Positions 20,189 through 40,412 of a DNA stretch of 64,000 nt are shown piece by piece (the stretch's first letter is position 1; each line of letters starts with the position of its first letter). A program made the translations under genes and the position numbers. Under the pieces are notes generated by a model. It had not been told where the DNA came from and ran no database searches. It worked only from the letters and a program-made list of their open reading frames with translations. The stretch is from NCBI RefSeq assembly GCF_038246755.1, contig NZ_CP134706.1, forward strand, positions 3,038,001 to 3,102,000. The letters are read 5' to 3'. The stretch is from Micromonospora sp. FIMYZ51. Lineage in GTDB: Bacteria; Actinomycetota; Actinomycetes; Mycobacteriales; Micromonosporaceae.

Positions 20189-21478
20189 TCAGCTGTCGGC
20201 GTGACCGCGGATCGCGTCCTGGGCGGTGGGGGCGGGCAGCGCGTCGAAGTGCCGTTGCATGTACGACAGCGAGGTCAGCAGCTCCGCCGAGGTGACGTCG
20301 CGCGTACGCCCCGGTGCCACAAGCGTGGTCAGCGGCAGCGCGCCGATGTCGGCCCAGCGCAGGGCCCCGTTCGCGTCCAGGTAGCTGCGGGTGCGGCCCT
20401 GGTTGTCCGGGTGCAGGCAGTACGGCACGTCCAGGTAGCCGCGGCGGAAGGCGATCAGCAGCGCCTGTCCCAGGTCGGCGTGCAGGTCCAGCACGGCCTC
20501 GATCAGCACACGGGCCTCGGCGTACGTCTGCGAGTCGTCGGCCGGGGCGCTGGCCTCCGGGGTCCGCGCCGCGACCTCGGCGGCCAGGTTCAGCGCGGCC
20601 ACGTTCTCCCCGATCGTGGGAATCCGGTGCGCCTCGGCGGTGGTCTTCACGATCAGGCGTTCCGCGCCGGTGCAGACCGCCAGGCGGGCCGCCTCCGCCA
20701 GCAGGCTCTCGCCGCCGTGCGGCGTACGCGGGTAGACGCCCATGTAGGCGTAGATCACCACATGCCAGTCCACCTGCGCGAGGAACTCCCCGGCCAGCGC
20801 CCGCAACGCGCGCACGGCCTGTTCGTCCTGCTCCCGGTTGGTCTGCTGGGCGTAGCTGACGGAGACCGACGCGATGCCGTGCTGGACGAAGAACATCGCC
20901 TCCAGCACGCTGAGCGCGACGAGCAGGCTGGGCGGGCAGAGCTGGCCCAGCATGCAGCCGCCGAACGTCTCCAGGTGCAGCGGTGGCCCGGCGGGTGGCG
21001 CGGCGACGAACGCCTGACAGGAGTGGGACCAGTTGCGCACCGAGTCGGCAAGCGCCGTACGCCCGTACGGCAGGCAGTAGGAGACCGGGCCGCCCTCGCT
21101 GGCCTCGATTCCGGCGGCGGCGGTCGCGGCGAAGATCTGCTGCGGTACGGCGGAGCCGTGCCGCACCTGCACCGGGAAATCGTCGTCCAGCACGCCGGCC
21201 AGCAGGGCGCGATTGCCGGCCACGCCGTGCGACACGATCGGGTAGCCGTTCAGGTCGACGCCGGCCCGCAGCGCCTCGGCGGCGCGGGCGGTCTCGCCGA
21301 CCCGGGTGTGACTGTCCACCGTGATCGTACCGATCGTCGCCGCCGGTACCGCCTTGGTCGCCAGCAGCCCGGCCCGCATCTTCCGTGGGTCGGGGAAACC
21401 CATCCGGGGCTGCACCACCAGCTGCCGCGCGGCGGCGTGCCGCCGGACGAACGCGGCGAAGCCCTGGCGACGGGTCAC
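20189..21478 (-). CDS. B12-dependent glutamate (methylaspartate) mutase, large subunit (GlmE/MutE type)
   Basis: This is the catalytic subunit of adenosylcobalamin-dependent glutamate mutase, which rearranges L-glutamate to (2S,3S)-3-methylaspartate. In vicenistatin-type pathways (VinH/VinI) this is the source of the beta-amino starter. The 429-residue size fits the epsilon subunit, and the family look is clear in the segments PRMGFPDPRKM, TITVDSHTRVG, NGYPIVSHG and HLETFGGCMLGQLCPP. A GTG start at 21478 overlaps the TGA of the small subunit (GTGA), so the two subunits are coupled and likely made in equal amounts. The open frame extends further upstream, but that sequence is the small-subunit gene read in another frame. 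Converges on the terminal PKS across a hairpin. Confidence 0.93.
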   Translation of the reverse strand: MTRRQGFAAFVRRHAAARQLVVQPRMGFPDPRKMRAGLLATKAVPAATIGTITVDSHTRVGETARAAEALRAGVDLNGYPIVSHGVAGNRALLAGVLDDDFPVQVRHGSAVPQQIFAATAAAGIEASEGGPVSYCLPYGRTALADSVRNWSHSCQAFVAAPPAGPPLHLETFGGCMLGQLCPPSLLVALSVLEAMFFVQHGIASVSVSYAQQTNREQDEQAVRALRALAGEFLAQVDWHVVIYAYMGVYPRTPHGGESLLAEAARLAVCTGAERLIVKTTAEAHRIPTIGENVAALNLAAEVAARTPEASAPADDSQTYAEARVLIEAVLDLHADLGQALLIAFRRGYLDVPYCLHPDNQGRTRSYLDANGALRWADIGALPLTTLVAPGRTRDVTSAELLTSLSYMQRHFDALPAPTAQDAIRGHADS

Positions 21479-21939
21479 GGCAGCACGCGCGGGCGGACCG
21501 TGGCGAGGTAGCCACGGAAGTCGCCGAACTCGGTGTGGCCGTCCTCGAAGACGGCGTCGAATCCGGCGACCATCAGCCGCCGCGAGAGGGTGCCGTCGGC
21601 GACGCCGGTGGTGCTCAGCTTCCCGCCGATCACCGTCGGGGTGTCGGCCAGCTCGGGACGCGCACGCAACGCCGCGATCGCCCGTAGGCCGTCCTGAAAC
21701 CCGTGGCCGTTGACGCTGCTCAGCACCACCAGGTCGGGGCGTCGGCGGGCACACTGCTCGACCAGCAGCGACTCCGGTACGCAGGGGCCGAGGTTGACCA
21801 CCCGGTGTCCCAACTCCTCCAACAGCAGCTGAAGAAAGACGAGATTCCAGGTGTGCGCGTCCGAGGCAACCCCGCTGAGCACCACCAGATTCCCGCCGGA
21901 CGCCTCGGGGAGCGAATCAGGCCGGATCGGACTGTTCAC
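21475..21939 (-). CDS. Glutamate mutase small, cobalamin-binding subunit (GlmS/MutS type)
   Basis: This is the B12-binding partner of the downstream large subunit. The fold signature is visible: VVLSGVASDAHTWNLVF carries the Asp-x-His pair that ligates cobalt in base-off cobalamin. The position that is Gly in the classical DxHxxG motif is Asn here. A VVNLGPCVP turn and a LSSVNGHG loop follow, as in the Rossmann-like B12 domain. The GTG start at 21939 overlaps the decarboxylase gene by 23 nt and has no strong Shine-Dalgarno sequence, so a slightly later start is possible. The cluster encodes no B12 synthesis, so activity depends on the cell's own or imported cobalamin. Confidence 0.9.
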   Translation of the reverse strand: MNSPIRPDSLPEASGGNLVVLSGVASDAHTWNLVFLQLLLEELGHRVVNLGPCVPESLLVEQCARRRPDLVVLSSVNGHGFQDGLRAIAALRARPELADTPTVIGGKLSTTGVADGTLSRRLMVAGFDAVFEDGHTEFGDFRGYLATVRPRVLP

Positions 21940-23140
21940 GGGTGTGCACCAGACGGGAGACGGAGAGCACCTCGTCGCCGCGGACCACGACCTCCGTCGG
22001 CGCCGGCCGGCCGAGGAACATGAGCAGGCTCGCGGTGGGGCCGTACGCGCCGACGTTCGGGATGGTCACCAGGTCGTCCCGGTCGAGCGTCGGCAGTTGG
22101 ATGTCGCGGCCGAGGATGTCACCGGGGGTGCAGAGCGGACCCACCAGGCTGGCTCGTTCCCGCTCGCCGTCCGCCTCGGCCTCGACCGCCACGGGCAGCA
22201 GACGGCCGAGGCCGGACATCCCGCCCAGGGTGTTGATCCCGGCGTCGGCGATGACGTACTTGCGACCGCGGCTGACCTTGACGTTGACCACCCGGGTGAG
22301 CAGCGTGCCCGCGTCGCCGACCAGGTGGCGTCCGGACTCGAAGGCGATCCGCGGCGCGCCGTCCCGCCAGCCGGGCAGGTCCCGGTCGAGGGTGTGTTCG
22401 AGTTCGGTGCGCAGCTTCTCGTAGCGTGGCCGGTGGCCGGGCACGGCGTACGGGGCGGCGAACCCGCCCCCGATGTCCAGGAGCCGCAGCGGCAGGTCCA
22501 GGCGCGCGGAGAGGTCGGCGGCCAGGCCGATGGTGTGCCGGAACTCGGCGATCAGCGAGTCCTCGTCCCGGGCGTTGCTGAGCGGATAGAAGTGCAGGCC
22601 CGCCAGCTCGGCGCCGGGTACGTCGCGCAGCCCGGGCAGCACCTCCGGCAGCGTCTCGCTGTCGAAGCCGAACTGCGACGGGGTGCCGGTCATCCGGATG
22701 CTGGTGCTCGCGCTCGCCGAGGCGCTGTTGACCCGCAGCAGGCAGTGCGCGGTGATCCCCAGGGCGGCGGCCCGGGCACCCACCGCGGTCAGGTCGCCGG
22801 GGGACTCGACGGAGAACGTCCGCACCCCGGCGGCGAGCGCGGCACTGATCTCCGCGTCCGTCTTGCCCGGCCCGGTGTAGAGGACGTCGGCACCGGAGTA
22901 CCCGGCCTGCCGGATCACGTCCAGCTCGCCGGTGGAGCTGATCTCCACCCGGCACGGCTGGCCAGCGCCGGTGCGCAGGGCGCGTACCAGTTCGGGGTGT
23001 GGGTTCGCCTTGACCGCGTAGTAGAGCTCGGTTCCCGGCGGAAGGGCCTCGATCAGGTCACGCCGGGCGGCGTCGACCCGGTCCAGGTCGTAGACGTATA
23101 GGGGTGTGCCGAATCGCGCGGCGAGGGCGGCGTATTCCAT
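21917..23140 (-). CDS. Fold-III PLP amino acid decarboxylase (VinO-type 3-methylaspartyl decarboxylase)
   Basis: This 407-residue protein belongs to the alanine-racemase-fold (group IV) decarboxylases, with diaminopimelate and ornithine decarboxylases. The PLP lysine is K44 in YYAVKANP. The phosphate-binding glycine run LDIGGGF, the ESGRHLVGDAG segment and the inter-subunit Cys in GPLCTPGD are all present. Known family members in beta-amino-acid macrolactam clusters (VinO) decarboxylate 3-methylaspartate on its carrier protein to 3-aminoisobutyrate. The position directly upstream of the mutase genes supports that substrate. The ATG at 23140 is preceded by GGGAG at good spacing; a TTG one codon earlier is less likely. 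It is divergent from tetR. Confidence 0.9.
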   Translation of the reverse strand: MEYAALAARFGTPLYVYDLDRVDAARRDLIEALPPGTELYYAVKANPHPELVRALRTGAGQPCRVEISSTGELDVIRQAGYSGADVLYTGPGKTDAEISAALAAGVRTFSVESPGDLTAVGARAAALGITAHCLLRVNSASASASTSIRMTGTPSQFGFDSETLPEVLPGLRDVPGAELAGLHFYPLSNARDEDSLIAEFRHTIGLAADLSARLDLPLRLLDIGGGFAAPYAVPGHRPRYEKLRTELEHTLDRDLPGWRDGAPRIAFESGRHLVGDAGTLLTRVVNVKVSRGRKYVIADAGINTLGGMSGLGRLLPVAVEAEADGERERASLVGPLCTPGDILGRDIQLPTLDRDDLVTIPNVGAYGPTASLLMFLGRPAPTEVVVRGDEVLSVSRLVHTREQSDPA

Positions 23141-23200
23141 CAATGGTCACTCCCGACTGAATTCCCACCGACGGTAGTGAAAGAGCCAGTGGTGGCAGGA

Positions 23201-23297: not shown

Positions 23298-23885
23298 ATG
23301 GGTCACCGTGAGGATCTGCTCGAAGGGGCGAAGCGCTGCCTCTACGAACGTGGTTACGCCCGCACCACGGCGCGGGACATCGTGGCGGCGTCGGGGGCCA
23401 ATCTGGCGTCGATCGGGTACCACTTCGGCTCCAAGGAAGCCCTGCTGAACGCCGCCATGATGGAGGCGTTCACCGAATGGGGCCAGGAACTCGACCAGTC
23501 GTTGCCGGTGAACGCCGGCGCCGACCCGGTGGAGGAACTCGAATCCACCTGGCAGACGGTCACCCAGTCGTTCACCGTCCACCGGCCGCTCTGGGTGGCC
23601 AGCATCGAGGCGTACGCGCAGGCCCAGCACAGCCCGGAGCTGCGTGATCAGCTCGCGGCCAGCCTGGAGAACATCCGCACCGCCCTGGCCGGTGATGTCA
23701 CCAAGGCGCACGGTGCGGTCGACGAGCGCACGGCGCGGGCCGTCGGGTCCGTCCAGCTCGCGCTGCTCACCGGGCTGATGGTGCAGTGGCTGATCGACCC
23801 GGCGGGCGCGCCGGACGGTGCCGACGTCACCGCCGCGCTGCGCATGATCGCCGGGCAGCCGCCAGCGCCGGACACCCCGCAATGA
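23298..23885 (+). CDS. TetR-family transcriptional regulator
   Basis: This 195-residue protein has an N-terminal TetR helix-turn-helix (TTARDIVAASGANLASIGYHFGSKEALL, about residues 22-50) and a helical ligand-binding C-terminal half ending in a long amphipathic segment. The ATG at 23298 was chosen because the conserved domain begins right after it (GHREDLLEGAKRCLYERG); the upstream 27 codons of open frame have no domain content. It sits alone on the plus strand, divergent from the starter-unit genes and convergent with the first PKS. It probably represses its own promoter and that of the decarboxylase-mutase operon, or an exporter outside the window; the ligand may be the macrolactam. No exporter is next to it. 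Confidence 0.9.
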   Translation: MGHREDLLEGAKRCLYERGYARTTARDIVAASGANLASIGYHFGSKEALLNAAMMEAFTEWGQELDQSLPVNAGADPVEELESTWQTVTQSFTVHRPLWVASIEAYAQAQHSPELRDQLAASLENIRTALAGDVTKAHGAVDERTARAVGSVQLALLTGLMVQWLIDPAGAPDGADVTAALRMIAGQPPAPDTPQ

Positions 23886-26900: not shown

Positions 26901-29900
26901 GCGGCGTCCAGCAGGGCCGGATGCAGGCCGAAGCCGGCCGCCGCGTCGGCCACCTCCGCGGGGAGCGCGACCTCGGCGAAGACCTCGCCGGCGCGGGTCC
27001 AGGCGGCGCGCAGCCCCTGGAACGTCGGACCGTACCGGTATCCCTGGTCGGCCAGGCCGGCGTAGTGGTCGCCGAGGTCGACCGGCCGGGCGTCCGGCGG
27101 TGGCCACGGCAGCGCGGCGGGTTCCTCGACCGGCTGCCCGGGCGCGAGGAACCCCGAACCGTGCCGGGTCCAGCTGTCGCCGTCGGCCGGCCGGGAGAGG
27201 ATCCGCAGTGCACGACGGCCGTCCTCGGCTTCGGCGCCCACCTCGACCTGGATCACCACCGGCTCCTCGGCGAGCGCCAGCGGCACCTCCAGGGTCAGCT
27301 CGGCCAGGTCCGGCACGCCGGCCCGCTCGCCGGCGTGCAGCGCCAGTTCCACGAACGCGGTGCCGGGCATCAGCACCGTGCCGGCCACGTCGTGGTCGGC
27401 CAGCCACGGATGGGTACGGGTGGAGAGCCGCCCGAACAGCACCAGTTCGGTACCGCCGTCGACCTCGGTCAGGCCGCCGAGCAGCGGGTGCCCGGCCGGA
27501 CGTACGCCGAGACCGGCCGCGTCGCCGCCCGCCGCGCCGGGCGCCAGCCAGAACCGTCGGCGCTGGAACGGGTACGGCGGCAGCGGCACCCGGCCCGCGC
27601 CGTGGTCGGGGTGCAACGCGCTCCAGTCCACGGACGCGCCCCGGGTCCAGGCGGTCGCCACGGCGGTCAGCAGGTTCTCCGCCTCCGGCCGGCCACGGCG
27701 CAGCGCCGGGACGAACACCGCCGTGTCGGGCGCGCTGTGCGCGCCCATGCCGCTGAGCACCGCGTCCGGGCCGAGTTCCAGGTAGGTGGCGATGTCCTGC
27801 TCGGCGAGGGTACGCACGGCGTCGGCGAACCGCACCGGCTGGCGTACGTGCCGCACCCAGTACTCCGGGTCGCACAACTCGTCGGCACTGGCCGGCCGGC
27901 CGGTCACCGTGGACACCACAGGCGTGTGTGGCGGGTGGTAGTCGAGGATCTCGGCGACCTGGCGGAACTCGGCAAGCATCGGTTCCATGAGCGGCGAGTG
28001 GAAGGCGTGGCTGACCCGCAGTTGCCGGGTGCGGTGCCCGGCGGCGGCGAGCATGCCGGCCACCCGGGTCGTCGGCTCGGCGGCGCCGGAGAGCACCACC
28101 GAACCGGGCTCGTTGATCGCCGCGATGTCGACCTGACCAGCCAGGTCGGCGAGGAGCGGCCGGACCACGTCCGCCGGCGCGCCGACGGCGATCATGGCAC
28201 CGCCGGCCGGCAGCGCGCTCATCAGCCGCCCGCGGGCGGCCACCAGCATCGCGGCGTCCTCCAGGGACAGCACCCCGGCCAGGTGGGCGGCGGTGATCTC
28301 GCCGACCGAGTGGCCGGCCAGCCGGTCCGGGCGTACGCCCCACGAGGCCAGCAGCCGAGCCAGCGCCACACCCAGCGCGAACAGGGCAGGCTGGGCGTAG
28401 CCGGTGTCGTCAAGCAGCGCCGCCTCCGGGGTGCCCTCGGCGGCGGTGAGCACGTCCCACAGTGGTCGGTCCAGTTGCAGGTCCAGGTAGCCGCAGGCCT
28501 CGTCGAGGGCGTCGGCGAAGACCGGGTACTCGCGGCACAGTTGCGCGCCACTGCCGGGCCGCTGGCTGCCCTGTCCGGTGCAGAGCCAGGCCAGTCCGCC
28601 GGTCACTCGACCGCCGATCACCAGCCCGGCGGCGTCGTCGCCGGCCGCGAGCGCGGCGGCGGCCCGGGTCAGCTCCGCCCGGTCGCGTCCGAGCAGCACC
28701 GCGCGGTCGGGCAGGCTGGTACGCAGAGCGGCCAGCGACCGGCCGACGTCGGCCACCGACGCCCCGGTCAACCCGGCGAGGTCGTGGCCCATCGCCCGCA
28801 GCGCGTCCCGGCCCCGGGCGGAGAGCGGCCACGGCGCCAGGGTCCCGTCGGGCTCCTGGGGCGGCGCCTCGACCGGGGCGGCGTCGGCCTCCTCCAGGAT
28901 CAGGTGGGCGTTGGTGCCGCTGACGCCGAACGACGACACGCCAGCCCGGCGCGGGTGGTCGCTGTTGTCCCAGGCGATCTCCTCACGCAGCAGCCGTACC
29001 TGGCCCGACGACCAGTCCACGTGCGGCGTCGGCTCGTCCACGTGCAGCGTGCGCGGCAGCCGGCCGTGCCGCATGGCCTGCACCATCTTGATCACGCCGG
29101 CCACGCCGGCGGCGGCCTGGGTGTGCCCGATGTTGGACTTGACCGAGCCGAGCCACAGCGGCTGGTCCGGCCGCCGGTCGCGGCCGTAGACGCCGAGCAG
29201 CGCCGCCGCCTCGATCGGGTCGCCGAGCGTGGTGCCGGTGCCGTGCGCCTCCACCGCGTCGACGTCGTCGGGGCCCAGCCCGGCGTCGGCGAGGGCCTGG
29301 CGGATCACCTGCCGCTGGGCGGCGCCGCTGGGCGCGGTGAGCCCGTTGCTGGCACCGTCGGAGTTGACCGCCGAACCGCGGATGACCGCCAGCACGGTGT
29401 GCCCGGCGCGGCGGGCGTCGGAGAGCCGTTCCAGCACCAGCACGCCGACACCCTCGGCGAAGCCGGTCCCGTCGGCGGCGGCGGCGAAGGGCTTGCACCG
29501 CCCGTCGGGGGCCAGCGCCCGCTGCCGGCTGAACGCGGTGAAGGTGCCCGGGCCGCCCAGCACGGCCACGCCGCCGGCCAGCGCCAGCCGCACCTCGCCC
29601 TGCCGCAGCGACCGGCACGCCAGATGCACCGCGACAAGCGACGCCGAGCAGGCGGTGTCGATTGTCAACGCCGGGCCCCGCAGGCCCAGCACGTACGCGA
29701 TCCGCCCGGACATGACGCTTGGCGCCGCGCCGGTCAGCAGGTGTGCGTCCAGCCCGGCGGGCGCCTCGTACAGCCGTGGCCCGTACTCCTGCGGCTCGGC
29801 GCCGACGAACACCCCGACCGGCTCGCCGTGCAGCCCGGCCGGGTCGATGCCGGCGTCTTCAAGCGCCGTCCACGCGGTCTCCAGCATCAGCCGTTGCTGC

Positions 29901-30511: not shown

Positions 30512-32037
30512 GCGTCGCTCCGTTCCAGCAGCTGCACCAGGTTGGCCCGGGCGTTCTTGCCGTGCTTGGTCAACGGCAGCTCGTCGAGCACCAGGCAGGT
30601 GGCCGGCACCTTGGCCGGTTCCAACCGCCGGGCCAGCTCCCGCAGGATCACCTGCGGCGGCAGCTCCGACTCCACGCACAGGGCCAGGTCCCGGCCGGGA
30701 CCTGGCGGGACGGCGGCGGCGGCGCGTACGCCGGGCACGTCCAGCGCCGCTGCCTCGATTTCCGTGGTGCTCATCCGGATCCCCTTGCGTTTGAACATGT
30801 CGTCGCGCCGGCCCTCGAAGTAGAGGTAGCCGTCGGCGTCGAGCCGTCCGTAGTCGCCGGTGTGCAGGCGGGCCACGCCGTCCGGCCCCCGGCGGAAGGT
30901 GCGCGCGGTGAGTTCCGGGGCGCGCCAGTAGCCGGGCATCACGTGCGGACCGGCGGCGACGATCTCGCCGACCTCGCCGGTGGGCACCGGCTCGCCGTCC
31001 GGATCGAGGATGAGCACGGTGGTGCCGGGCAGCGGTCGGCCCACCGAGTCCGGCCGCTGCTCGTCCTCGTCGACCGGCATGATCGAGATCCGTTTGCACT
31101 CGGTCTGGCCGAACTGGCGTACCACCCGGACGCCGGGGAACGCCGTGCGCAGCGCCGCGATGGTGCTCGCGGCGAGGGCGGCGCCGGTGTTGGTGAACAT
31201 CCGCACCGGGGGCAGCGGACCCTGCTCGCGTTCGGCCAGCCCGGCGATCATCGTGGCCAGCGAGGGCACGATCGGGACCACCGTGGCGCCGGTCTCCCGC
31301 ATCCGGCTCAGCAGCCGCAGGTCCGACTCGTCACCGGCCAGCACGAGTTCGCTGCGGCCCAGGCAGGTGAGCAGGATCTTGTAGAGCCCGTAGTCCCAGG
31401 AGATCGGGAAGCGGCAGAAGACCACGTCGTCGTCGCGGTAGCCGAGCACGGCCTGGATCGCCTCGGAGGCGAAGACCATCCGGTCGTGCGCGCAGATCAC
31501 CGCCTTGGGCGCGGCGGTGCTGCCCGAGGTGTAGACCAGGGTGGCCACGGCGTCGGCGGACAGGTCGGCGGCGGGCGTGTCGCTGGGGCCGGCCGCGGCG
31601 ATCGCGGCCACCTCGGACCAGACGACCGCAGTGGCGTGCACCGGGACCTGGGTCAGGGCCGCCGTGTCGCCGGGCTCCGCCAGGAGCACAAGCACCGGCT
31701 CGGCGTCGTCCAGGATGGAGCGCAGATGGTACGCCCGGGTCGCCGGGTTGATCGGGACGAACACCGCGCCGAGCCGGGACGTGGCGTAGCAGAGCGCGAC
31801 CAGCTCCCGCGTGCTTGCGGACTGCACCAGAATCCGGTCGCCCGGACGGACGCCCTGGCCGCGCAGCCAGTCCGCGCAGGCGATGCTGTGCCGGTGCAGC
31901 TCCCGGTAGGTCCACCGGCCATGTTGGTCCCGTACGGCAGGTACCTCGGCGTGCGTCCGCAGCGCCTCGTCGAGCAGGTCGTGCACCCGACGTCCCGGCA
32001 TGGTGTGGGTGGCACCGTGGTTGTTGCGCTCAGCCAT
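30508..32037 (-). CDS. Beta-amino acid adenylating enzyme (VinN-type)
   Basis: This 509-residue ANL-superfamily ligase should activate the beta-amino acid as its adenylate and load it on the free ACP encoded at 33753. The ATP-binding loop YTSGSTAAPK, the DxGY-like HTGDYGRLD and the C-terminal lysine region LTKHGKNAR are all present. Recalled VinN substrate residues Asp230, Lys330 and Arg331 correspond, at a constant offset of 15, to D215 (SWDYGLYK), K315 and R316 (TECKR) here. The Lys/Arg pair contacts the second carboxylate of 3-methylaspartate, which agrees with the mutase in the same cluster. The ATG at 32037 has GGGAGA upstream, and the stop overlaps the PKS start. It has no fused carrier or condensation domain. 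Confidence 0.9.
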   Translation of the reverse strand: MAERNNHGATHTMPGRRVHDLLDEALRTHAEVPAVRDQHGRWTYRELHRHSIACADWLRGQGVRPGDRILVQSASTRELVALCYATSRLGAVFVPINPATRAYHLRSILDDAEPVLVLLAEPGDTAALTQVPVHATAVVWSEVAAIAAAGPSDTPAADLSADAVATLVYTSGSTAAPKAVICAHDRMVFASEAIQAVLGYRDDDVVFCRFPISWDYGLYKILLTCLGRSELVLAGDESDLRLLSRMRETGATVVPIVPSLATMIAGLAEREQGPLPPVRMFTNTGAALAASTIAALRTAFPGVRVVRQFGQTECKRISIMPVDEDEQRPDSVGRPLPGTTVLILDPDGEPVPTGEVGEIVAAGPHVMPGYWRAPELTARTFRRGPDGVARLHTGDYGRLDADGYLYFEGRRDDMFKRKGIRMSTTEIEAAALDVPGVRAAAAVPPGPGRDLALCVESELPPQVILRELARRLEPAKVPATCLVLDELPLTKHGKNARANLVQLLERSDA

Positions 32038-32131: not shown

Positions 32132-33607
32132 CTAGCCGGCTCCCGCTGCCACCAGTTCGGCCGCCACGCCCCGCAGCGCGGTACGGTCGATCTTGCGGTT
32201 GGTGTTCAGCGGCAGCTCCGCCACGTGCCGGTAGTGGCGGGGCACCAGACCGGCCGGCAGCACCGCGCGCAGCTGGCGGGCGAGCACTCCGGCGGAGGTG
32301 GGTACGCCGGTGTAGAACACCACCAGCTCCAGTTCGCCCTCGGCGGCGGTCGCCACGGTGACCGCCTCCTGCACCTGAGCGCAGCCGCGCACCGCGTGGT
32401 CGATCTCGGCCAGCTCCACCCGTACCCCCCGGATCTGCACCTGGGCGTCGGCCCGGCCCAGGTAGAGCAGGTCGTCGTCGAGGCGACGGACCCGGTCCCC
32501 GGTGCGATACCAGGTGCGCCCGTCGTGCCGCAGGAACCGGCCCACGTTGTCGGCCGGGTCGAGATAGCCGGCGGTGGCCTGCGGGCCGGTGACGCAGAGT
32601 TCGCCCTCGTCGTCGTCGGTCGGGGTGCCGTCCGGGCCGAGCAGCAGGTGGTCGTGGCCGGGATGCGGCAGACCGATCGGCACCACCCCGTTCACCGACC
32701 GCGCCGCCGATGCGGGGCCCCAGCGGTGCGCGCCGATGGTGATGGTCAGCTCGGTGGGGCCGTACAGGTTCTCCAGGGTCGACGCGGGCGCGGCGACCTG
32801 CCAGCGTTGCGCGTCGTCGCACCGGAGCGCCTCGCCGGCAAAGAAGCTCCAGCGCAGTCCGGGCAGCGCGCCCGCGCCCAGCCCGCCCATCCGGGCCACC
32901 AGCGGGATCGCACTGGGCGTGGCGAACCATACGGTGATCCGGTGTTCGGCGAGGAAGGCGGGCAGTTCCCGGTAGGCGTGCCCGGGTACCGCCACCAGAC
33001 CGGCTCCCGCCCCCCAGGCGCAGAAGACGTCGAACAACGCGCAGTCGAAGTTCAGGTCGAAGGTCTGCGAGAAGACGTCCTGCGCGGTGAAGTCGTAGCG
33101 CTTGTCGATGAGGCCGAAGTAGTGCGCGGCGTTGCCCTGCGAGATCGGCACGCCCTTGGGCCGGCCGGTCGATCCGGAGGTGAAGAGGATGTACGCGGTG
33201 TCGTCGGCCGTGACCGGCCGTGGCTCCGGCAGGGCGGGCGCGTCGTCACCGGCGATCGGGACGCCGGTGGCCCGCGCGGCCGGCAGCGACGCCTCGTCGG
33301 TCAGCAGCAGGTCGATCTGGGCCGCCTCGATCATCGCGGCGGTACGCGCGGCGGGGAAGTCCGGCCGCAGCGGCACGACCGTGGCACCGGCGTGCAGCGC
33401 GGCCAGCAGCCCGGTGTAGGCGGCCGGACCCTTGTCGGCGAGTACGCCCACCCGGCGCGCCCCGGCGGCGGCCACCGCCCCCGCCCGGCGTAGCGCCCGC
33501 TCGTGCAGGTCGCGGTAGCTCAGGGCGGTGTCGCCGACCCGCACCGCGACGCGGTCGGGGGAGCGGGCGAGGCCGCGCAGGAAACGCTGGGAAAGCCCCT
33601 GAACCAT
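32132..33607 (-). CDS. Amino acid adenylating enzyme (VinM-type, aminoacylates the starter)
   Basis: This is a 491-residue stand-alone adenylation enzyme. Core motifs: LFTSGSTGRPKGVP (A3), NLYGPTE (A5), YRTGDRV (A7), and a C-terminal catalytic lysine in NTNRKIDRTAL (A10). In vicenistatin-type pathways VinM activates L-alanine and attaches it to the amine of the beta-aminoacyl-ACP, protecting it during chain growth. The pocket segment FDLNFDCALFDVF has the Asp expected for alpha-amino binding, but the exact amino acid cannot be read from sequence here. The ATG at 33607 is preceded by GGAGG at 4 nt. Divergent from the carrier protein gene; 94 bp separate it from the next ligase. Confidence 0.88.
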   Translation of the reverse strand: MVQGLSQRFLRGLARSPDRVAVRVGDTALSYRDLHERALRRAGAVAAAGARRVGVLADKGPAAYTGLLAALHAGATVVPLRPDFPAARTAAMIEAAQIDLLLTDEASLPAARATGVPIAGDDAPALPEPRPVTADDTAYILFTSGSTGRPKGVPISQGNAAHYFGLIDKRYDFTAQDVFSQTFDLNFDCALFDVFCAWGAGAGLVAVPGHAYRELPAFLAEHRITVWFATPSAIPLVARMGGLGAGALPGLRWSFFAGEALRCDDAQRWQVAAPASTLENLYGPTELTITIGAHRWGPASAARSVNGVVPIGLPHPGHDHLLLGPDGTPTDDDEGELCVTGPQATAGYLDPADNVGRFLRHDGRTWYRTGDRVRRLDDDLLYLGRADAQVQIRGVRVELAEIDHAVRGCAQVQEAVTVATAAEGELELVVFYTGVPTSAGVLARQLRAVLPAGLVPRHYRHVAELPLNTNRKIDRTALRGVAAELVAAGAG

Positions 33608-33752: not shown

Positions 33753-34001
33753 ATGTGGGACGATCAGTTCGAGAGCCTGCTCAGGCAGTACCTTCCCTTC
33801 ATTTCCCCGGATGAGAAGTTGGAGGCCGACAGCGACCTGCGCGACCTCGGTCTGGATTCCATGGGAATGGTGGAGCTGCTGCGTGCGCTCGAGCAGGAAT
33901 ACGACGTACGATTCACCGACGATCTGCTGAGCACGGACACCTTCCGTACTCCCGGAGTGCTTGCCGAGGCGCTGTCGAGCGTCCGCGCCGCCGCCGTCTG
34001 A
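33753..34001 (+). CDS. Free-standing acyl carrier protein (VinL-type)
   Basis: This 82-residue carrier protein has the phosphopantetheine serine S36 in [10 protein letters not shown]. The acidic helix around it and the [11 protein letters not shown] helix IV are typical of discrete carriers in beta-amino-acid macrolactam clusters. It should hold the methylaspartyl, aminoisobutyryl and dipeptidyl intermediates handled by the two ligases, the decarboxylase and the acyltransferase around it. The ATG at 33753 follows AAAGGA. It is the only starter-unit gene on the plus strand, between a divergent ligase and a convergent acyltransferase 9 bp downstream, so it must have its own promoter and can be expressed separately. 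Confidence 0.93.
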
Positions 34002-34010: not shown

Positions 34011-35000
34011 CTAGGCCGGCACCGTGCGTCGGCGCGGTGCCATGGCCAGCCGGGGCGTGACCGCCACCACCTCCAGTGCCCGCGTGGTGGTCCCGACCCG
34101 GCCGAACAGGCTGTCCTGGCCGGCGACGCAGACCCGGGTCACGCCACGGGCCCGCAGCGCGGCCACCACCCGGGGCCAGTGCAGTGGCCGGACGATGTGG
34201 TCCAGCAGCATCCCGCGTACCTGCTCGGCGGTGGCCACCGGCGCGCCGTCGTGATCCTCGATCAGCGGCATCCGTGGGTCGGCGAACCGCAGGGTGGACA
34301 GCACCTCCCGGCCGGCCCGCTCCCGGAGCCCGGCGAACGCCGCGCAGTGCATCGGCGGGCGCATCGTGTACAGCGGCAGACCGCCCGCGCCGCGTACCTC
34401 CCGGTCCAGCCGGTCCACCTGCGACTGCGGCAGCGAGACCATGAAGAAGTCGTCGTCCAGGTAGCAGGAGACCTCGTGCCAGATCCCGTCGGCGGTCAGG
34501 CCGACCAGGATGCTGTCGAGTTGCTCGCCCGGCACCCGGACGAACGAGCGGGTGACGACCTCCCGGTGCTCGGTGGCGAAGTAGTCGTCCAGCAACCGGG
34601 CCAGCCGCGCGGTGAGGCGTACGCCGTCGGCAAAGGAGAGCGCGCCGCTGTGTACGGCGGCTGCCCGCTGGCCGAAGCTGGGTCCCACCACGACGGCCGG
34701 GTCGATGCCGAGCGTCTCGACCGACCACTCGGCCAACGCCAGACAGTTCACCAGGAACGCCACCTGGGCGGCCTCGGAGTAGTCGGAGCTGGACTCCCGG
34801 TACCGCTGCACCAGCGGATACCCCAGCACCTCGTCCGCCGCCGCGACCAGGCGCCGGGCCACCGGGTGCACCACCATGAACTTGGCGACGTCGGTGAACG
34901 GCACGGGACCCATGCCGGGGAAGACCAGGGCGGTGCCGCCCGGGTCGACACCGGTCGCACCGGCCGTTGCGGTCACCGGCCCCTGCTCGTGCGGGCTCAC
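34011..35000 (-). CDS. Stand-alone acyltransferase (VinK-type dipeptidyl transferase)
   Basis: This 329-residue protein has the malonyl-CoA:ACP acyltransferase fold. The nucleophile is S108 in GPSFGQ, where the classical motif is GHSxG, and the catalytic His is probably H218 in PPMHCAAF. The Pro in place of His before the serine and the missing malonyl-binding motif argue against malonyl-CoA as substrate. VinK moves the dipeptide from VinL to the loading ACP of the first PKS, and this protein is next to both partners. The GTG at 35000 overlaps the stop of the upstream hydrolase (GTGA). The stop faces the ACP gene. Confidence 0.9.
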   Translation of the reverse strand: MSPHEQGPVTATAGATGVDPGGTALVFPGMGPVPFTDVAKFMVVHPVARRLVAAADEVLGYPLVQRYRESSSDYSEAAQVAFLVNCLALAEWSVETLGIDPAVVVGPSFGQRAAAVHSGALSFADGVRLTARLARLLDDYFATEHREVVTRSFVRVPGEQLDSILVGLTADGIWHEVSCYLDDDFFMVSLPQSQVDRLDREVRGAGGLPLYTMRPPMHCAAFAGLRERAGREVLSTLRFADPRMPLIEDHDGAPVATAEQVRGMLLDHIVRPLHWPRVVAALRARGVTRVCVAGQDSLFGRVGTTTRALEVVAVTPRLAMAPRRRTVPA

Positions 35001-35899
35001 CCGAGCTCCTTCAGGAATGCGGAGAGCACGGCGTCGAAGGCCGCCGGCTCCTCGATGTGTGGTACGTGGCTGGAGTTCTCCAGCACCGTCCAGCGCACGT
35101 TCGGGATCAGCTCGACGAACGGCTGGACCGTGGCGGGGGTCGCCTCGTCGTGCCGGCCGGTGAGCACAAGCGTCGGCACGGCGATGTCCGGCAGCCGGTC
35201 CAGCAGCGACCAGTCCCGCAGGGTGCCGATCACATGGAACTCGCTCGGTCCGTTCATCGTGTGATAGACGGTCGGGTTGTTCGCCAGCTCCAGGAACGTC
35301 GCCATGAACTCCGGCGGCCAGGGCGTGACCCGGCAGACGTGCTTGTCGTAGAACACCTTCATCGCGGTGAAGTACTCGGCGGTGCTGGTGGTGCCGGCGG
35401 TCTCGTGCCGGCGCAGCACCTCGTCCACGCCCGGAGGCAGCTGCGCCCGCAACACCTCCATCTCGGCGCGCCACAGCGGGTACGACGCGGGGGAGTTGGC
35501 GATCACCAGCCCGCGCAGCCCGGCCGGGCGGTCGGCGGCGTGCCGGGCCGCCAGCATGCCGCCCCAGGACTGGCCGTAGAGCAGGTAGTCGCCGGAGATG
35601 CCGAGGCGCAGCAGCAGATTCTGGAGTTCGTCGAGGAACAGCTCGACGGTCCAGAAGTCGGCGCCGCGCTCGGGCAGGTGGGTGGAGCCGCCGTTGCCCA
35701 ACTGGTCGTAGTGCACCACGGGCCGACCGTCGGTGCGGGCCAGTTCGGCCAGGTGGATCAGCGAGTCGTGGGTGGCGCCGGGACCACCGTGCAGCACCAC
35801 CAGCGGGGTACGACCGCTGCGTAGGTCACCGGTGACGCGGTACCAGGTGCGGAACTGCCGGAAGGGCACGGTGCCGCGGGCGTCGGGCGGCAGGGGCAT
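34997..35899 (-). CDS. Proline iminopeptidase-like amidohydrolase (VinJ-type)
   Basis: This 300-residue alpha/beta hydrolase of the S33 prolyl aminopeptidase family has the oxyanion motif HGGPGATHD, the nucleophile elbow GQSWGG, and catalytic Asp and His in GRHDEATP and SSHVPHIEEP. In vicenistatin biosynthesis VinJ removes the protecting terminal alanine from the finished chain so the beta-amine can attack the thioester. The ATG at 35899 is preceded by GGAGG at 9 nt; the longer open frame to 36322 overlaps the methyltransferase and is not used. There is no signal peptide, so it acts inside the cell. Coupled to the acyltransferase gene by a GTGA overlap. Confidence 0.9.
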   Translation of the reverse strand: MPLPPDARGTVPFRQFRTWYRVTGDLRSGRTPLVVLHGGPGATHDSLIHLAELARTDGRPVVHYDQLGNGGSTHLPERGADFWTVELFLDELQNLLLRLGISGDYLLYGQSWGGMLAARHAADRPAGLRGLVIANSPASYPLWRAEMEVLRAQLPPGVDEVLRRHETAGTTSTAEYFTAMKVFYDKHVCRVTPWPPEFMATFLELANNPTVYHTMNGPSEFHVIGTLRDWSLLDRLPDIAVPTLVLTGRHDEATPATVQPFVELIPNVRWTVLENSSHVPHIEEPAAFDAVLSAFLKELG

Positions 35900-35913: not shown

Positions 35914-36621
35914 CTACCGGGCCATGGTGCCGAGGAAGAGGCCCCGGTCGGCCCGACCAGCCTCCAGCATCCGCACCGGGCAACCGGCAGCGGCGAACGC
36001 CTCCTCGTACTCGGCCTGCGAGAACAGGGCCAGGTCCTGGTGGTCGACGAAGTGCCGGACGCCGTGCGGCTCGGACACCAGGTAGTGCATGTCGACAAGC
36101 GACCGGCCCTCGCGGGTGTGCCACCGACCCATCCGGGAGATGACCATGCCCGAGTGTTCGAAGCGCGCCGAGGCGAGCCGCCCGCCGTCCCAGCGTTCCC
36201 GCAGGATCCACGGCTCCACCATGAGCACCCCGCCGGGTGCCAGATGCGCGACCAGCCGGGCCGCCGCCGCGCGCAGGTCGTCCAGGCCGCCCAGATAGGC
36301 GATCGAGCTGTACATCGAGCACACCACGTCGAAGCGGCGGCCCAGGTCGAAGGTCCGCATGTCGGCCTCGTGCAGCGGGACATCGTCCAGCTTGGTGCGG
36401 GCCACCTCAAGCATCGGTGCCGACAGGTCGATACCCGTGCAGGTGAAGCTCTTCCTCAGGTGCCGCAGGTGCTCGCCGGTGCCGCAGCCCACGTCGAGCA
36501 GGGTGGTCGGCCGGTCCCCGTGCCGGTTCGCCAGATCGCGGATCAGTTCGGCGTTCTCGGCGTAGTCGGACAGGGCGCAGTAGACCCGGTCGTAGACCTC
36601 GGCCAGTTGTTGGTCGTACAA
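35914..36621 (-). CDS. NDP-aminosugar N-methyltransferase (VinG/TylM1/DesVI-like)
   Basis: This 235-residue SAM-dependent methyltransferase has motif I LLDVGCGTGEHL, the acidic motif II residue in TGIDLSAPM, and motif III LAPGGVLMVEPW. Its overall layout (YAENAELI, MYSSIAYLG, DHQDLALFSQAEYEEAFAAAGC) follows the sugar N-methyltransferases TylM1 and DesVI. With the aminotransferase 18 bp upstream it should methylate a 4-amino-deoxyhexose; mono- versus dimethylation cannot be told from sequence. The likely start is TTG at 36621 with AAAGGTG 8 nt upstream. Confidence 0.87.
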   Translation of the reverse strand: MYDQQLAEVYDRVYCALSDYAENAELIRDLANRHGDRPTTLLDVGCGTGEHLRHLRKSFTCTGIDLSAPMLEVARTKLDDVPLHEADMRTFDLGRRFDVVCSMYSSIAYLGGLDDLRAAAARLVAHLAPGGVLMVEPWILRERWDGGRLASARFEHSGMVISRMGRWHTREGRSLVDMHYLVSEPHGVRHFVDHQDLALFSQAEYEEAFAAAGCPVRMLEAGRADRGLFLGTMAR

Positions 36622-36639: not shown

Positions 36640-37785
36640 TCAGCGGGCCTGGACCGTGCGCCGGATGATCTGACAGATGCCGGAGATTTCCGCGGCGCCG
36701 ATGGCGGTACCGGTCGGTAGCGCGAGCACTCGTCGGGACAGGGCCTCCGAGTGGGGCAGCGGCAGCGGTGCGTGCACCTCCGGCGCGCGGCGGTAGGGCT
36801 CGGTCTCATGGCAGCACGGGTGGAAGTACCTGCGGGATAGCACGTTCTCGCGCAGCAGGGCGTCGTGCACATCGTCGCGGTCCACTCCGGACACCCGCTC
36901 GTCGATCTCGACGACGACGTACTGGAGGTTGGACCGTTCGTCGCCGGTGGTGCCGGGGCGCAGGCGGACCGCCGACACCCCGTCGAGTTCCTTGTCGTAC
37001 TGCTCGTAGTTCGTCCGGTTCGCGTCGATGATCGACTCCATCACCTCAAGCGAGGCGAGGCCCATCGCCGCGGCGCCCTCGTTGAGTTTGCCGTTCGTAC
37101 CGACCGAGCCGACCTCACGGTCCTCGCCGATACCGAAGTTGCGCATGGCCCGGGCGGTCCGCGCCAGCGCCTCGTCGTTGGTGACGATGGCCCCACCCTC
37201 GAAGCTGTTGACGAACTTCGTGGCGTGGAAGCTGAGCACCTCTGCGGCGCCGAAACCGCCCAACGGCCGGCCGCCGATGGTGGAGCCGAGGCCGTGCGCG
37301 GCGTCGTAGACCACCGGGATGCCGTGCCGGTCCGCGACCGCAGCCAGGCCGTCGACGTCGCACGGTCGACCGAAGACGTGCACCGGCAGGATGGCCCGGG
37401 TACGCGGCGTGATCAGCTGGGCGACGTGGGCGGGGTCGGCGTTTGCGGTGTCCGGGTCGATGTCGCAGAAGACCGGCACCACGCCGATCCAACTCAGCGC
37501 GTGTGCGGTGGCCACCCAGGTGAACGACGGTACGATCACCTCGTCGCCGGGCCCGACGCCGAGCGCCCGGACGGCGATCTGCATGCCCACCGTGGCGTTG
37601 CAGACGGCTACGCAGTAACGGGTGCCGGTGACTGCGGCGAGCCGTTCCTCAAACTCCTCGCCGAGCGGGCCGGCGGTGAGCCAGCGCCGGTCCCACGCGG
37701 AGTCGACGAGTTCGTGGAACCGCTCGCGGTCACCGAGGTTCGGCCGCCCGACATGTAGGGGCTCGGAGAACATCGGCTGTGACAT
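36640..37785 (-). CDS. NDP-hexose aminotransferase, DegT/DnrJ/EryC1 family (VinF-like)
   Basis: This 381-residue PLP aminotransferase has the internal aldimine lysine in SFHATKFVNSFEGG, the cofactor Asp in VVYDAAHG, and the phosphate contacts near CNATVG. Family members transaminate keto-sugars; with the 2,3-dehydratase and ketoreductase opposite, C-4 amination of a 2,6-dideoxy-4-ketohexose is expected, as in vicenisamine. No clear Shine-Dalgarno sequence precedes the ATG at 37785. The divergent gap to the dehydratase (172 bp) contains two CCCCTA repeat pairs. Transcribed as one unit with the methyltransferase and probably the hydrolase and acyltransferase. Confidence 0.9.
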   Translation of the reverse strand: MSQPMFSEPLHVGRPNLGDRERFHELVDSAWDRRWLTAGPLGEEFEERLAAVTGTRYCVAVCNATVGMQIAVRALGVGPGDEVIVPSFTWVATAHALSWIGVVPVFCDIDPDTANADPAHVAQLITPRTRAILPVHVFGRPCDVDGLAAVADRHGIPVVYDAAHGLGSTIGGRPLGGFGAAEVLSFHATKFVNSFEGGAIVTNDEALARTARAMRNFGIGEDREVGSVGTNGKLNEGAAAMGLASLEVMESIIDANRTNYEQYDKELDGVSAVRLRPGTTGDERSNLQYVVVEIDERVSGVDRDDVHDALLRENVLSRRYFHPCCHETEPYRRAPEVHAPLPLPHSEALSRRVLALPTGTAIGAAEISGICQIIRRTVQAR

Positions 37786-37809
37786 TGGCGCATCGTAGGT
37801 ACGGGCGCA

Positions 37810-37883
37810 CCCCTAGCCTCAACCCCTGGCGGGTGGCCCAAAGCGACGGATCGGGTCGGCGCAATCCCCTACCCGGCCCCTAA
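37810..37883. promoter_or_regulatory. Two CCCCTA-type repeat pairs in divergent sugar-gene promoter
   Basis: CCCCTAG at 37810 and CCCCTGG at 37823 form one pair. CCCCTAC at 37866 and CCCCTAA at 37877 form a second pair, 11 bp apart. The same motif is paired 10 bp apart at 23201 and 23211, suggesting one regulator for both divergent promoters of the cluster. Confidence 0.45.
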
Positions 37884-37956
37884 TGCCGCGACGGCAGCGC
37901 CGAGGTGGCGGGTCGTCCGGTGTACTGGCCCGGCCGTACCCCACAGAGGAGTCGCC

Positions 37957-39420
37957 GTGACAGCCCTTCCGCTCACCTCATTCCCGGAGGAAGCGATCGC
38001 GAAGCGCCTGGCCGCCTCGAGCACGATCGACCATCAGCCGATCGCCGACTTGACCGCGGTGCGCGCCTGGTACGCCGATCGCTGCCGAACGGACGTGGCC
38101 GAGGTCCGCCGCATCCCACTGGCCGAGCTGGTGGGTTGGCGCAGCGATCCGGCCACCGGGAACATCGTCCACGACAGTGGCCGGTTCTTCACCGTCGAAG
38201 GGGTGGAGGTGCACCACTCCGACGGTCCGGTGCCCACCTGGAGCCAGCCGATCATCCACCAGCGGGAGATCGGCCTGCTCGGCATTCTGATCAAGGACTT
38301 CGGCGGTGTCCTGCACTGTCTCATGCAGGCCAAGAACGAGCCCGGCAACTGCAACGGCGTACAGCTGTCCCCGACGGTGCAGGCGACCCGCAGCAACTAC
38401 ACCCGGGTGCACCGCGGCAACGCGGTGCCCTACCTGGAGCACTTCCAGGCGGCGGCCGGGCGACAGGTGGTCGCCGACGTGTTGCAGTCCGAGCAGGGTT
38501 CGTGGTTCTACCAGAAGCGCAACCGCAACATGGTGGTCGAGGTACGCGAGGACATCGAGGTACTCGACGGCTTCCACTGGATGACGCTCGGCCAGGTGCA
38601 CACGCTGCTCGCCGAGGACCATGTGATCAACATGGACGCCCGTACCGTGCTGTCCTGCCTGCCGTTCGCCACCACCGGCCTGGCCGGCGACCTGGTGCCG
38701 GCCCCGGACTCACCGGCCGCCCGGCTGGCCCGTTCGTGCAGCCCCGAGCAGGGCAGCCGGCACTCCACTGCCGAGGTGCTGAGCTGGATCACCGAGGCCC
38801 GCAGCCGGCACGAGCTGCGGGTGACCCGGATTCCGCTCAACCAGGTCCCGGACTGGGAGCGTCGACCGAACGGGATCGTGCACCGCGACGGCCGGTTCCT
38901 CAGCGTGGTCGCGGTCGATGTCCGCGCCCACCACCGGGAGGTCGCCGCCTGGACCCAGCCGCTGATCGAGCCGCACGGCGTGGGCGTCGCGGCCTTCTTC
39001 GTCCGCTCCTTCGACGGGGTGCTGCACGTGCTGGCCCGGGCCCGGGTCGAGCCGGGCTTCGTGCAGACCGTGGAACTGGGCCCGACCGTGCAGTGCACGC
39101 CGGAGAACTACGACGGGTCGCCCGACGGCTACCGGCCGCGCTACCTCGACGACGTGCTCGCCGCGGCACCGGAGCGGATCCTCTACGACGCCGAGCTGTC
39201 CGAGGAGGGCGGCCGGTTCCTGCACGCCCGCAACCGGTACGTGGTGCTGGAGGTCGACGACGACTGGGCCGGTCCGGCGTCCGACGACCCCGACTTCCGG
39301 TGGCTGACGATGCACCAGCTCGTCGAGCTGCTGCGCCACAGTCACTACGTAAACGTGCAGGCGCGCACCCTGGTGGCCTGTCTACAGAGCCTGTTCACCC
39401 TGACGGGAGCAGACCGGTGA
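37957..39420 (+). CDS. NDP-hexose 2,3-dehydratase (VinD/EvaA-like)
   Basis: This 487-residue protein has the two-repeat architecture of EvaA-type dehydratases. The halves share W-x-Q-P-(I/L)-I, G-(V/I)-(L/A)-x-F-F/DF-GVLH, (A/R)-x-(V/N)-EPG, LSPTVQ/LGPTVQ and RNRNMVVEV/RNRYVVLEV elements. It removes water across C-2/C-3 of NDP-4-keto-6-deoxyglucose, the first step to 2-deoxysugars. The GTG start has AGAGGAG 6 nt upstream. It is coupled to the next gene by a GTGA overlap. The earlier pathway enzymes (thymidylyltransferase and 4,6-dehydratase) are not in this window. Confidence 0.92.
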   Translation: MTALPLTSFPEEAIAKRLAASSTIDHQPIADLTAVRAWYADRCRTDVAEVRRIPLAELVGWRSDPATGNIVHDSGRFFTVEGVEVHHSDGPVPTWSQPIIHQREIGLLGILIKDFGGVLHCLMQAKNEPGNCNGVQLSPTVQATRSNYTRVHRGNAVPYLEHFQAAAGRQVVADVLQSEQGSWFYQKRNRNMVVEVREDIEVLDGFHWMTLGQVHTLLAEDHVINMDARTVLSCLPFATTGLAGDLVPAPDSPAARLARSCSPEQGSRHSTAEVLSWITEARSRHELRVTRIPLNQVPDWERRPNGIVHRDGRFLSVVAVDVRAHHREVAAWTQPLIEPHGVGVAAFFVRSFDGVLHVLARARVEPGFVQTVELGPTVQCTPENYDGSPDGYRPRYLDDVLAAAPERILYDAELSEEGGRFLHARNRYVVLEVDDDWAGPASDDPDFRWLTMHQLVELLRHSHYVNVQARTLVACLQSLFTLTGADR

Positions 39421-40412
39421 GCATCCCGTACACCCGGCTCGGCCGGACCGCGTTGCAGGTGAGCCGCCTCTGCCTGGGCACCCTGAACCTCGGCGTACGC
39501 ACCACCGAGGAGGAGGCGTTCGAGCTGCTCGACGACGCGTTGGAGCGGGGCGTCAACTTCGTCGACACCGCGAACCACTACGGCTGGCAGCGGCACAACG
39601 GCTACACCGAGGAACTGCTCGGCCGCTGGTTCGCGCGCGGCGGCGGGCGGCGGGAGCGGGTGGTGCTCGGCACCAAGGTGTACCACCCGATGTCCGAACT
39701 GCCAAACGACCGAGGGCTCTCCGCCCGGAACATCATCGCCTCCTGTGAGGCGTCGCTGCGCCGAATGGGTACGGACTGGATCGACCTGTTCCAGATGCAC
39801 CACGTCGACCGGGACGCCCCCTGGGACGAGGTGTGGCAGGCGATGGAGACGCTGACCCGCCAGGGCAAGATCCGCTATGTCGGCTCGTCCAACTTCGCGG
39901 GCTGGCACCTGGCCGCGGGCCAGGAGGCCGCCATCCGGCGGCAGTATCTCGGCATCGTCTCGGAGCAGTGCGTCTGGAATCTGGTGAGCCGGCACGTCGA
40001 ACTGGAGCTGGTGCCGGCGGCCCAGCACTACGGCATCGGCGTGCTGGCCTGGTCACCACTGCACGGTGGACTGCTCGGCGGGGCACTGCGCAAGCAGGCC
40101 GACGGCACCGCGGTGAAGTCGGCACAGGGCCGGGCCATGGTGGCCCTGCGCACCCGGCACACGGAGATCGTTGAGTACGAACGGCTCTGCGCCGAGGCGG
40201 GCCTCGACCCTGCTGAAGTGGGCACCGCCTGGGTGCTGAGCCGCCCCGGGCTGACCGCCGCGGTGATCGGGCCGCGTACCCAGGCGCACGTGGACTCCGC
40301 GATCCGGGCGCTCAACCTCACTCTCCCCGACGACCTGCTCAAGCGCCTGGACGAACTCTTCCCTCCGATCGGCAACGGCGAACCGGCCCCGGAGGCGTGG
40401 CTCGGCGGTTGA
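39417..40412 (+). CDS. Aldo/keto reductase, NDP-hexose 3-ketoreductase (VinE/EryBII-like)
   Basis: This 331-residue NADPH-dependent aldo/keto reductase has the catalytic tetrad: Asp in FVDTANHYGW, Tyr in the same segment, Lys in VLGTKVYH, His in FQMHHVD. A glycine-rich and Arg-bearing cofactor segment (VIGPRTQAHVD) sits near the end. The pairing with a 2,3-dehydratase points to reduction of the 3-keto intermediate to a 2,6-dideoxy-4-ketosugar. Start GTG at 39417 overlaps the dehydratase stop. The same open frame extends upstream to 37905, but that is a shadow of the dehydratase. Confidence 0.9.
   Translation: MSIPYTRLGRTALQVSRLCLGTLNLGVRTTEEEAFELLDDALERGVNFVDTANHYGWQRHNGYTEELLGRWFARGGGRRERVVLGTKVYHPMSELPNDRGLSARNIIASCEASLRRMGTDWIDLFQMHHVDRDAPWDEVWQAMETLTRQGKIRYVGSSNFAGWHLAAGQEAAIRRQYLGIVSEQCVWNLVSRHVELELVPAAQHYGIGVLAWSPLHGGLLGGALRKQADGTAVKSAQGRAMVALRTRHTEIVEYERLCAEAGLDPAEVGTAWVLSRPGLTAAVIGPRTQAHVDSAIRALNLTLPDDLLKRLDELFPPIGNGEPAPEAWLGG

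Follow-up and report, generated by a model that had tools for sequence, protein, structure and literature searches.

A predicted vicenistatin-type gene cluster for a 22-membered glycosylated macrolactam in Micromonospora sp. FIMYZ51

Vicenistatin is a macrolactam antibiotic that is built on an unusual amino acid starter and carries an aminosugar. We analysed a stretch of 64,000 bases from Micromonospora sp. FIMYZ51 (the window; bases 3038001-3102000 of a single-contig genome of 7,046,848 bases) together with its flanks, where negative coordinates are bases to the left of the window on the same chromosome. We found a gene cluster of about 73 kb, spanning -32.7 kb to +40.4 kb relative to the window. 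The region 20189-40412 encodes homologues of VinH-VinO, for the starter, and of VinD-VinG, for the aminosugar, while the left flank adds RmlA, RmlB, a LuxR-type regulator, an MFS exporter, an EryCIII-type glycosyltransferase and further polyketide synthase (PKS) genes. It is likely that this is a vicenistatin-type cluster which makes a nine-module, 22-membered glycosylated lactam primed with 3-aminoisobutyrate.

Genes were called by a simple script with a minimum of 80 codons, and their starts are approximate. Protein families were assigned by Pfam and NCBIfam profile matches with cut-offs and solved-structure matches by bit score. The PKS domain map comes from tblastn searches of every reading frame, so that interruptions cannot hide domains. 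Gene content, domain content and the order of the domains along the DNA were read directly. The mutase pair, decarboxylase, adenylating enzymes, carrier protein, acyltransferase, hydrolase, PKS and sugar genes listed in an initial annotation of the region were all recovered in place.

Starter and aminosugar genes

VinN-, VinM-, VinL-, VinK- and VinJ-type proteins are common to macrolactam clusters primed with beta-amino acids, and all five are present (signs in brackets give the strand). They are a 3-methylaspartate adenylating enzyme of the VinN type (30508-32037(-)), an aminoacyl-protecting adenylating enzyme of the VinM type (32132-33607(-)), a stand-alone acyl carrier protein (ACP) of the VinL type (33753-34001(+), PF00550), a stand-alone dipeptidyl acyltransferase of the VinK type (34011-35000(-), PF21124 VinK_C) and a prolyl-iminopeptidase-like amidohydrolase of the VinJ type (34997-35899(-)). 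The top solved-structure matches of the VinM, VinK and VinJ homologues are 8k4r (604 bits), 5czc (397 bits) and 3wmr (479 bits), which we take to be VinM, VinK and VinJ, the PDB table giving generic molecule names only. The VinN homologue matches 3wvn best (592 bits), which is described as VinN of vicenistatin in the consulted part of the source (PMC11253843). The cluster also encodes a glutamate (methylaspartate) mutase pair, with an E subunit of the VinI type (20189-21478(-), PF06368 at 294 bits) and a B12-binding S subunit of the VinH type (21475-21885(-), PF02310). Next to it lies a PLP-dependent fold-III decarboxylase of the VinO type (21917-23140(-), PF02784/PF00278), which has BtrK (2j66, 206 bits) as its top structure match. 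The mutase pair and the decarboxylase together mark the 3-aminoisobutyrate (vicenistatin) subgroup, and they pass the Pfam cut-offs.

In a genome-contig collection we found 236 relatives of VinK and kept 80 loci of about 8-21 kb each, from which 60 VinN relatives with more than 50% identity were drawn for a comparison of the substrate pocket. Roles of the pocket residues of VinN are described in the parts consulted of PMC11253843 and PMC7756342. Compared with 3wvn, the homologue here keeps D230, K330 and R331, and has the replacements F231Y and S299T. The Y/T form occurs in 59 of the 60 relatives, and the F/S form of VinN only in Streptomyces sp. BV286. Since F231Y/S299T is found in nearly the whole family, the difference alone points to no other substrate. 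The departure from the crystallised VinN at these two positions could be taken to mean that the starter is beta-alanine derived from aspartate, as in a fluvirucin-like pathway, and nine of the 59 Y/T-form relatives, two of them from one strain, show no mutase E gene within the stretch fetched. However, the other 50 do carry it with the same pocket code, and here the mutase pair lies next to the decarboxylase gene, which makes a beta-alanine starter extremely improbable and favours 3-aminoisobutyrate.

By gene family, counterparts of the vicenisamine genes VinA, B, D, E, F and G and of the glycosyltransferase VinC are all present. RmlA (-31507 to -30677(-)) and RmlB (-30467 to -29487(+)) score above the NCBIfam cut-offs for glucose-1-phosphate thymidylyltransferase and dTDP-glucose 4,6-dehydratase, respectively, and the glycosyltransferase (-24179 to -22866(+)) above that for the activator-dependent family. 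At the right end lie an N-methyltransferase of the VinG type (35914-36621(-), PF13649), a DegT-family sugar 4-aminotransferase of the VinF/DesI type (36640-37785(-), PF01041; 2po3 at 382 bits), an NDP-hexose 2,3-dehydratase of the VinD type (37957-39420(+), PF03559 at 548 bits, without an NCBIfam match) and an aldo/keto reductase of the VinE type, a 3-ketoreductase (39417-40412(+), PF00248). Within the fetched stretches, a 2,3-dehydratase occurs in 5 of the 80 relative loci and an aldo/keto reductase with 73-77% identity in four. The annotated called genes in the region of about -38 to +43 kb include a single DegT-family gene and neither a P450 nor a 3,5-epimerase gene. This speaks against a forosamine route and, by known logic, against an L-sugar.

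The families of these genes suggest where the amine sits and leave the number of N-methyl groups and the configuration at C3 free. The lactam could thus be as proposed and carry a sugar other than vicenisamine, namely a dimethylated or 3-epimeric 4-amino-2,4,6-trideoxyhexose. We regard this as possible, albeit on the unlikely side, given that the four sugar enzymes have counterparts in the vicenistatin-like BV286 cluster (N-methyltransferase 56%, aminotransferase 62%, 2,3-dehydratase 57%, reductase 74%). The N-methyltransferase is also 66% identical to the homologue of S. sedi.

Polyketide synthase architecture and frame interruptions

The PKS consists of four proteins with nine extension modules (M1-M9), a loading ACP at the N-terminus of the first protein and a terminal thioesterase (TE), the latter two being features of macrolactam clusters primed with beta-amino acids. 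Substrate types of the acyltransferase (AT) domains were assigned from YASH/HAFH motifs. P1 (23936-30511(-); Pfam, domain map) contains the loading ACP, followed by M1 with a ketosynthase (KS), a malonyl AT, a dehydratase (DH), an enoylreductase (ER), a ketoreductase (KR) and an ACP. P2 (-22779 to -7192(+)) comprises M2 (methylmalonyl, DH-ER-KR), M3 (malonyl, DH-KR) and M4 (methylmalonyl, KR), and P3 (-7139 to 13052(+)) comprises M5 (methylmalonyl, DH-KR) and the malonyl DH-KR modules M6, M7 and M8. Left of the window are M5 and the M6 KS; M7, M8 and the part of M6 from the AT onwards are inside it (Pfam of 8400-13052). P4 (13049-20044(+); Pfam, motifs, domain map) is M9, with a docking region, KS, methylmalonyl AT, DH, ER, KR, ACP and TE. 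The initial annotation had correctly read a fully reduced first module (DH-ER-KR), at least three DH/KR modules (M6 from its AT, M7 and M8, all malonyl) and a fully reduced methylmalonyl last module (DH-ER-KR-ACP-TE). The left flank was outside its view, and the glycosyltransferase and remaining PKS genes, whose absence it had named as a refutation, are both present there.

The C-ends of P1 and P2 and the N-ends of P2 and P3 appear to be of one docking type, and the C-end of P3 and the N-end of P4 of another. Only P1-P2-P3-P4 joins like docking ends, so this order is favoured by the docking classes as generally known, and the order P1-P3-P2-P4 was rejected on docking type by the same classes. 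Reading P3 as two genes (open reading frames 2-8296 and 8400-13052) was also rejected, the KS of M8 being spread over three frames. Because of this, and of the gap of only about 64 bases between the ACP of M7 and the KS of M8, M5-M8 were taken as one protein. The KR of M4 lacks the LDD motif and has the Trp typical of the A type under the usual KR rule; the remaining KRs have LDD or a variant. ACP motifs were readable in all nine extension-module ACPs, and KS motifs in seven of the nine KS domains, those of M4 and M8 being frame-broken. Four Rfam ASpks matches lie antisense to KS-coding DNA (3974-4042(-), 8838-8906(-), 14063-14131(-) and 29138-29212(+)) and likely reflect coding homology of the KS DNA.

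The frame breaks were scored against near-identical sister modules, with compared stretches 95.9-98.9% identical. The AT of M2 lacks one base at three places, the AT of M5 at two and the KS of M8 at two, whereas the KS of M4 has one extra and one missing base. The breaks in the M8 KS, near 8120 and 8451, were absent from the module account of the initial annotation. Seven of the nine distinct single-base differences are runs of five G or T read as four; the other two are a run of three G read as two and one extra T. One missing-G position is common to M4 and M8. The KS of M4 also shows gaps of 3 and 9 bases at its end relative to that of M7, and between the ATs of M4 and M9 no length difference was found. 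In the 164 kb examined there is no N.

These interruptions could be real mutations in a decayed cluster without a product, as four domains are broken relative to near-identical sister stretches and two of the differences are not five-to-four runs. We consider this quite improbable, since the seven others are such runs within near-identical repeats, M2 and M4 return to frame after the differences, and P1, P4 and the listed starter and sugar genes are open. Long-read consensus is weakest in near-identical repeats. From the sequence, the interruptions are probably consensus errors of the assembly in repeated DNA.

Proposed pathway and predicted product

For an intact vicenistatin-type cluster, the following route can be proposed. 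The glutamate mutase would convert L-glutamate into (2S,3S)-3-methylaspartate, which the VinN homologue would load on the free ACP, and the VinO homologue would decarboxylate the 3-methylaspartyl unit to 3-aminoisobutyryl-ACP. The VinM homologue would then protect the amine with an aminoacyl cap, which is L-Ala in vicenistatin, and the VinK homologue would pass the resulting dipeptide on to the P1 loading ACP. Nine extensions would follow on P1 (M1), P2 (M2-M4), P3 (M5-M8) and P4 (M9-TE), after which the VinJ homologue would take off the cap and the TE would close a 22-membered lactam. RmlA, RmlB and the VinD/E/F/G homologues would supply dTDP-4-methylamino-2,4,6-trideoxyhexose, which the EryCIII-type glycosyltransferase would attach, most simply at the C13 hydroxyl.

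We infer the substrates, protein order, ring size, sugar and stereochemistry, and the chemical structure is a prediction from gene and domain content. Counted from the amide at C1, M9 would give a methyl at C2 and a saturated C3, and M8, M7 and M6 would give C4=C5, C6=C7 and C8=C9. M5 would place a methyl at C10, with either C10=C11 or a hydroxyl at C11, and M4 a methyl at C12 and the hydroxyl at C13. C14=C15 would come from M3, the C16 methyl and saturated C17 from M2, saturated C18/C19 from M1 and the C20 methyl from the starter. The predicted lactam carries five methyl groups, its amide end is saturated with an alpha-methyl, and a single hydroxyl is available for a vicenisamine-type sugar. 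By formulae worked out by hand, the aglycone would be C26H41NO2 and, with a C7 methylaminosugar, the product C33H54N2O4 ([M+H]+ 543.4156), or [M+H]+ 561.4262 if M5 does not dehydrate and leaves a hydroxyl at C11. This provides a defined target mass for liquid chromatography-mass spectrometry (LC-MS).

Several observations weigh against this reading. The best NCBIfam matches of both mutase subunits are the expected ones and lie below the cut-offs (E, TIGR01503, 165 bits against 390; S, methylaspartate mutase S, 44 bits against 110), as does that of the aminotransferase (DesI model TIGR04427, 478 bits against 650). P2 and P3 are not open throughout, with single-base differences in the M2 AT, M4 KS, M5 AT and M8 KS. 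The rules for AT motifs, KR types and docking classes are all taken from general knowledge of the field. The ACP of M4 reads FESV at the carrier serine, where the other ACPs read FDSL or LDSL/LDSM. The vin module order was compared only via BV286, that is, through its last module and three unplaced fragments. Finally, Glu replaces the catalytic Asp in the M5 DH, a position that is Asp in the other seven DHs of the cluster, and the Tyr of the YGP motif is replaced not only in this domain (Leu) but also in the DHs of M3 (His) and M6 (Arg).

The catalytic Asp is kept in all 57 DH domains from relatives, which were collected at a query coverage of at least 85% and without a stop from the 80 relative loci, the S. 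sedi and S. pilosus clusters and the BV286 fragments, some of them being near or exact duplicates. Among the same 57, the YGP Tyr is altered in one, a Gln stands four residues past the catalytic Asp in four, and the catalytic His, also kept in M5, is present in 54. The Glu in M5 makes the state of C10-C11 uncertain. Judging from these residues, no dehydration (C11-OH) appears likeliest, a working DH next and a shifted olefin third. It is rather unlikely that the product combines the undescribed aglycone of a 22-membered, 3-aminoisobutyrate-primed, vicenisamine-type lactam with a shifted beta,gamma dehydration in M5, which would give a trisubstituted C11=C12 olefin. In vicenistatin, the C9-C10 olefin is ascribed to a unique dehydration by the DH of module 5 and is left unexplained in the part of the source consulted (PMC11284099); the parallel to M5 here is suggestive only.

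Surroundings and relation to known systems

Further genes of the cluster are a type II thioesterase (-32652 to -31861(-)), a DUF5988 protein (-31844 to -31569(-)), the large LuxR-type regulator (-28717 to -26009(+)), the MFS exporter (-25860 to -24364(+)) and a TetR-family regulator (23298-23885(+), PF00440). A fatty acid desaturase (40462-41433(-)) and an aldo/keto reductase (41633-42523(-)) adjoin the cluster on the right and are unlikely to belong to it. To the left lie a stand-alone condensation-domain protein (-37269 to -35923) and a separate small PKS/NRPS-like cluster (-52094 to -37295) with ACPs, class III aminotransferase and luciferase-like domains on the ACP proteins, PhyH, adenylation-KR, KS and ABC transporter genes. 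Two cobalamin riboswitches, on a stretch that also encodes the B12-dependent mutase, precede a class I ribonucleotide reductase large chain (riboswitch 43228-43436(+), gene 43567-45942) and a B12-independent methionine synthase (riboswitch 51058-51268(+), gene 51380-53617). The window also encodes a GH10 xylanase (57264-60638(-)), in which CBM9 and CBM4_9 domains are accompanied by a CBM2 match that stays below the cut-off. A subtilase (61718-63910(-)) carries a CBM2 domain, and a 15/45-base tandem repeat lies within its gene at 62021-62196.

A VinK match was found in 18 of 160 genomes of the genus, the own genome included, and none of the other 17 exceeds 57% identity. The nearest VinK in the genome-contig collection is 63% identical (80 kept of 236). 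In a protein search, one entry on a 1,873-base contig is identical over 86% of the length, and the next best reaches 64% among the 120 matches listed. After itself, the glycosyltransferase matches at 69% over 70% of its length and then at 50%. Using the VinK of BV286 against a sample of 392 genomes of its own genus, in almost all of which no more than five candidates were scored, no other listed match exceeded 66%. In a thin survey of the 80 relative loci, none of 14 TE modules has an ER, and the two readable first modules are both without one; under stricter parsing, 11 TE modules were read, all lacking an ER, of which eight are malonyl and three without an AT assignment.

The cluster shares with that of vicenistatin (vin, Streptomyces halstedii) the starter pathway with its protection-deprotection logic, four PKS proteins, the leading ACP of P1, the vicenisamine-type sugar gene families and the glycosyltransferase, as far as the vin cluster is described in the consulted part of PMC11284099. 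In contrast, the 20-membered ring of vicenistatin implies eight modules, where we found nine, and the saturated alpha-methyl terminal unit is a further difference. The vicenistatin VinK is about 56% identical to the homologue here, and its VinN has the F/S instead of the Y/T pocket. The BV286 cluster is close to vicenistatin (VinK 88% to 5czc, part of VinN 89%) and has VinD-G and VinH-O homologues in one block (L036, L127), as here. Its starter and sugar proteins are 55-74% identical to those here, and its terminal module is malonyl DH-KR-TE. The BV286 PKS is incomplete on the contig; two DH-ER-KR fragments and one malonyl DH-KR fragment on other contigs (L128-L130) were assigned to it by inference.

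The shared starter and sugar gene types and the four PKS proteins also known from vicenistatin (described in part of PMC11284099) might indicate that the product is vicenistatin or a near, 20-membered congener, with one module skipped. This is very unlikely, since the PKS, with nine modules, KS and ACP motifs readable as given above and a terminal methylmalonyl DH-ER-KR-TE module, does not match the 20-membered ring of vicenilactam. The suggestion that the module order departs from that of vicenistatin agrees with the module number and with the BV286 terminal module, and a glycosylated macrolactam with a beta-amino-alpha-methyl starter is supported as a prediction.

Other relatives share parts of this system. 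S. sedi (L051) and S. pilosus (L083) have the mutase and VinJ-O and VinD/E/F homologues as here, S. sedi also the N-methyltransferase, but their eight and ten modules, respectively, are all malonyl by motif and without an ER. Ciromicin/macrotermycin use the same 3-amino-2-methylpropionate starter, and the ciromicin core is predicted to be 22-membered; in the part of PMC10662134 consulted, they have xylosamine-type sugars, P450s and ten modules on six PKS genes, whereas the cluster here has dTDP-hexose aminosugar genes, no P450 found and nine modules on four genes. Fluvirucin B2 resembles it in the decarboxylation on an ACP and in the aminosugar, but has an aspartate-derived starter, a 3,5-epimerase and L-mycosamine according to the consulted part of PMC11284099, where we found a mutase pair and no epimerase.

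In the open-licence literature on macrolactams, vicenistatin and Micromonospora, we found no description of this module order or of a vicenisamine-type 22-membered lactam. A known cluster with the same module order, named beforehand as a refutation, was not found there, and those clusters that can be read in whole or in part differ. The aglycone is probably new, and the predicted ring and methyl pattern are absent from the clusters and literature compared.

Overall, our data place a further vicenistatin-type cluster on a Micromonospora chromosome; the biosynthetic logic itself is already known. With its odd DH, M5 would provide a second system relevant to the trisubstituted olefin of vicenistatin as described in part of PMC11284099.

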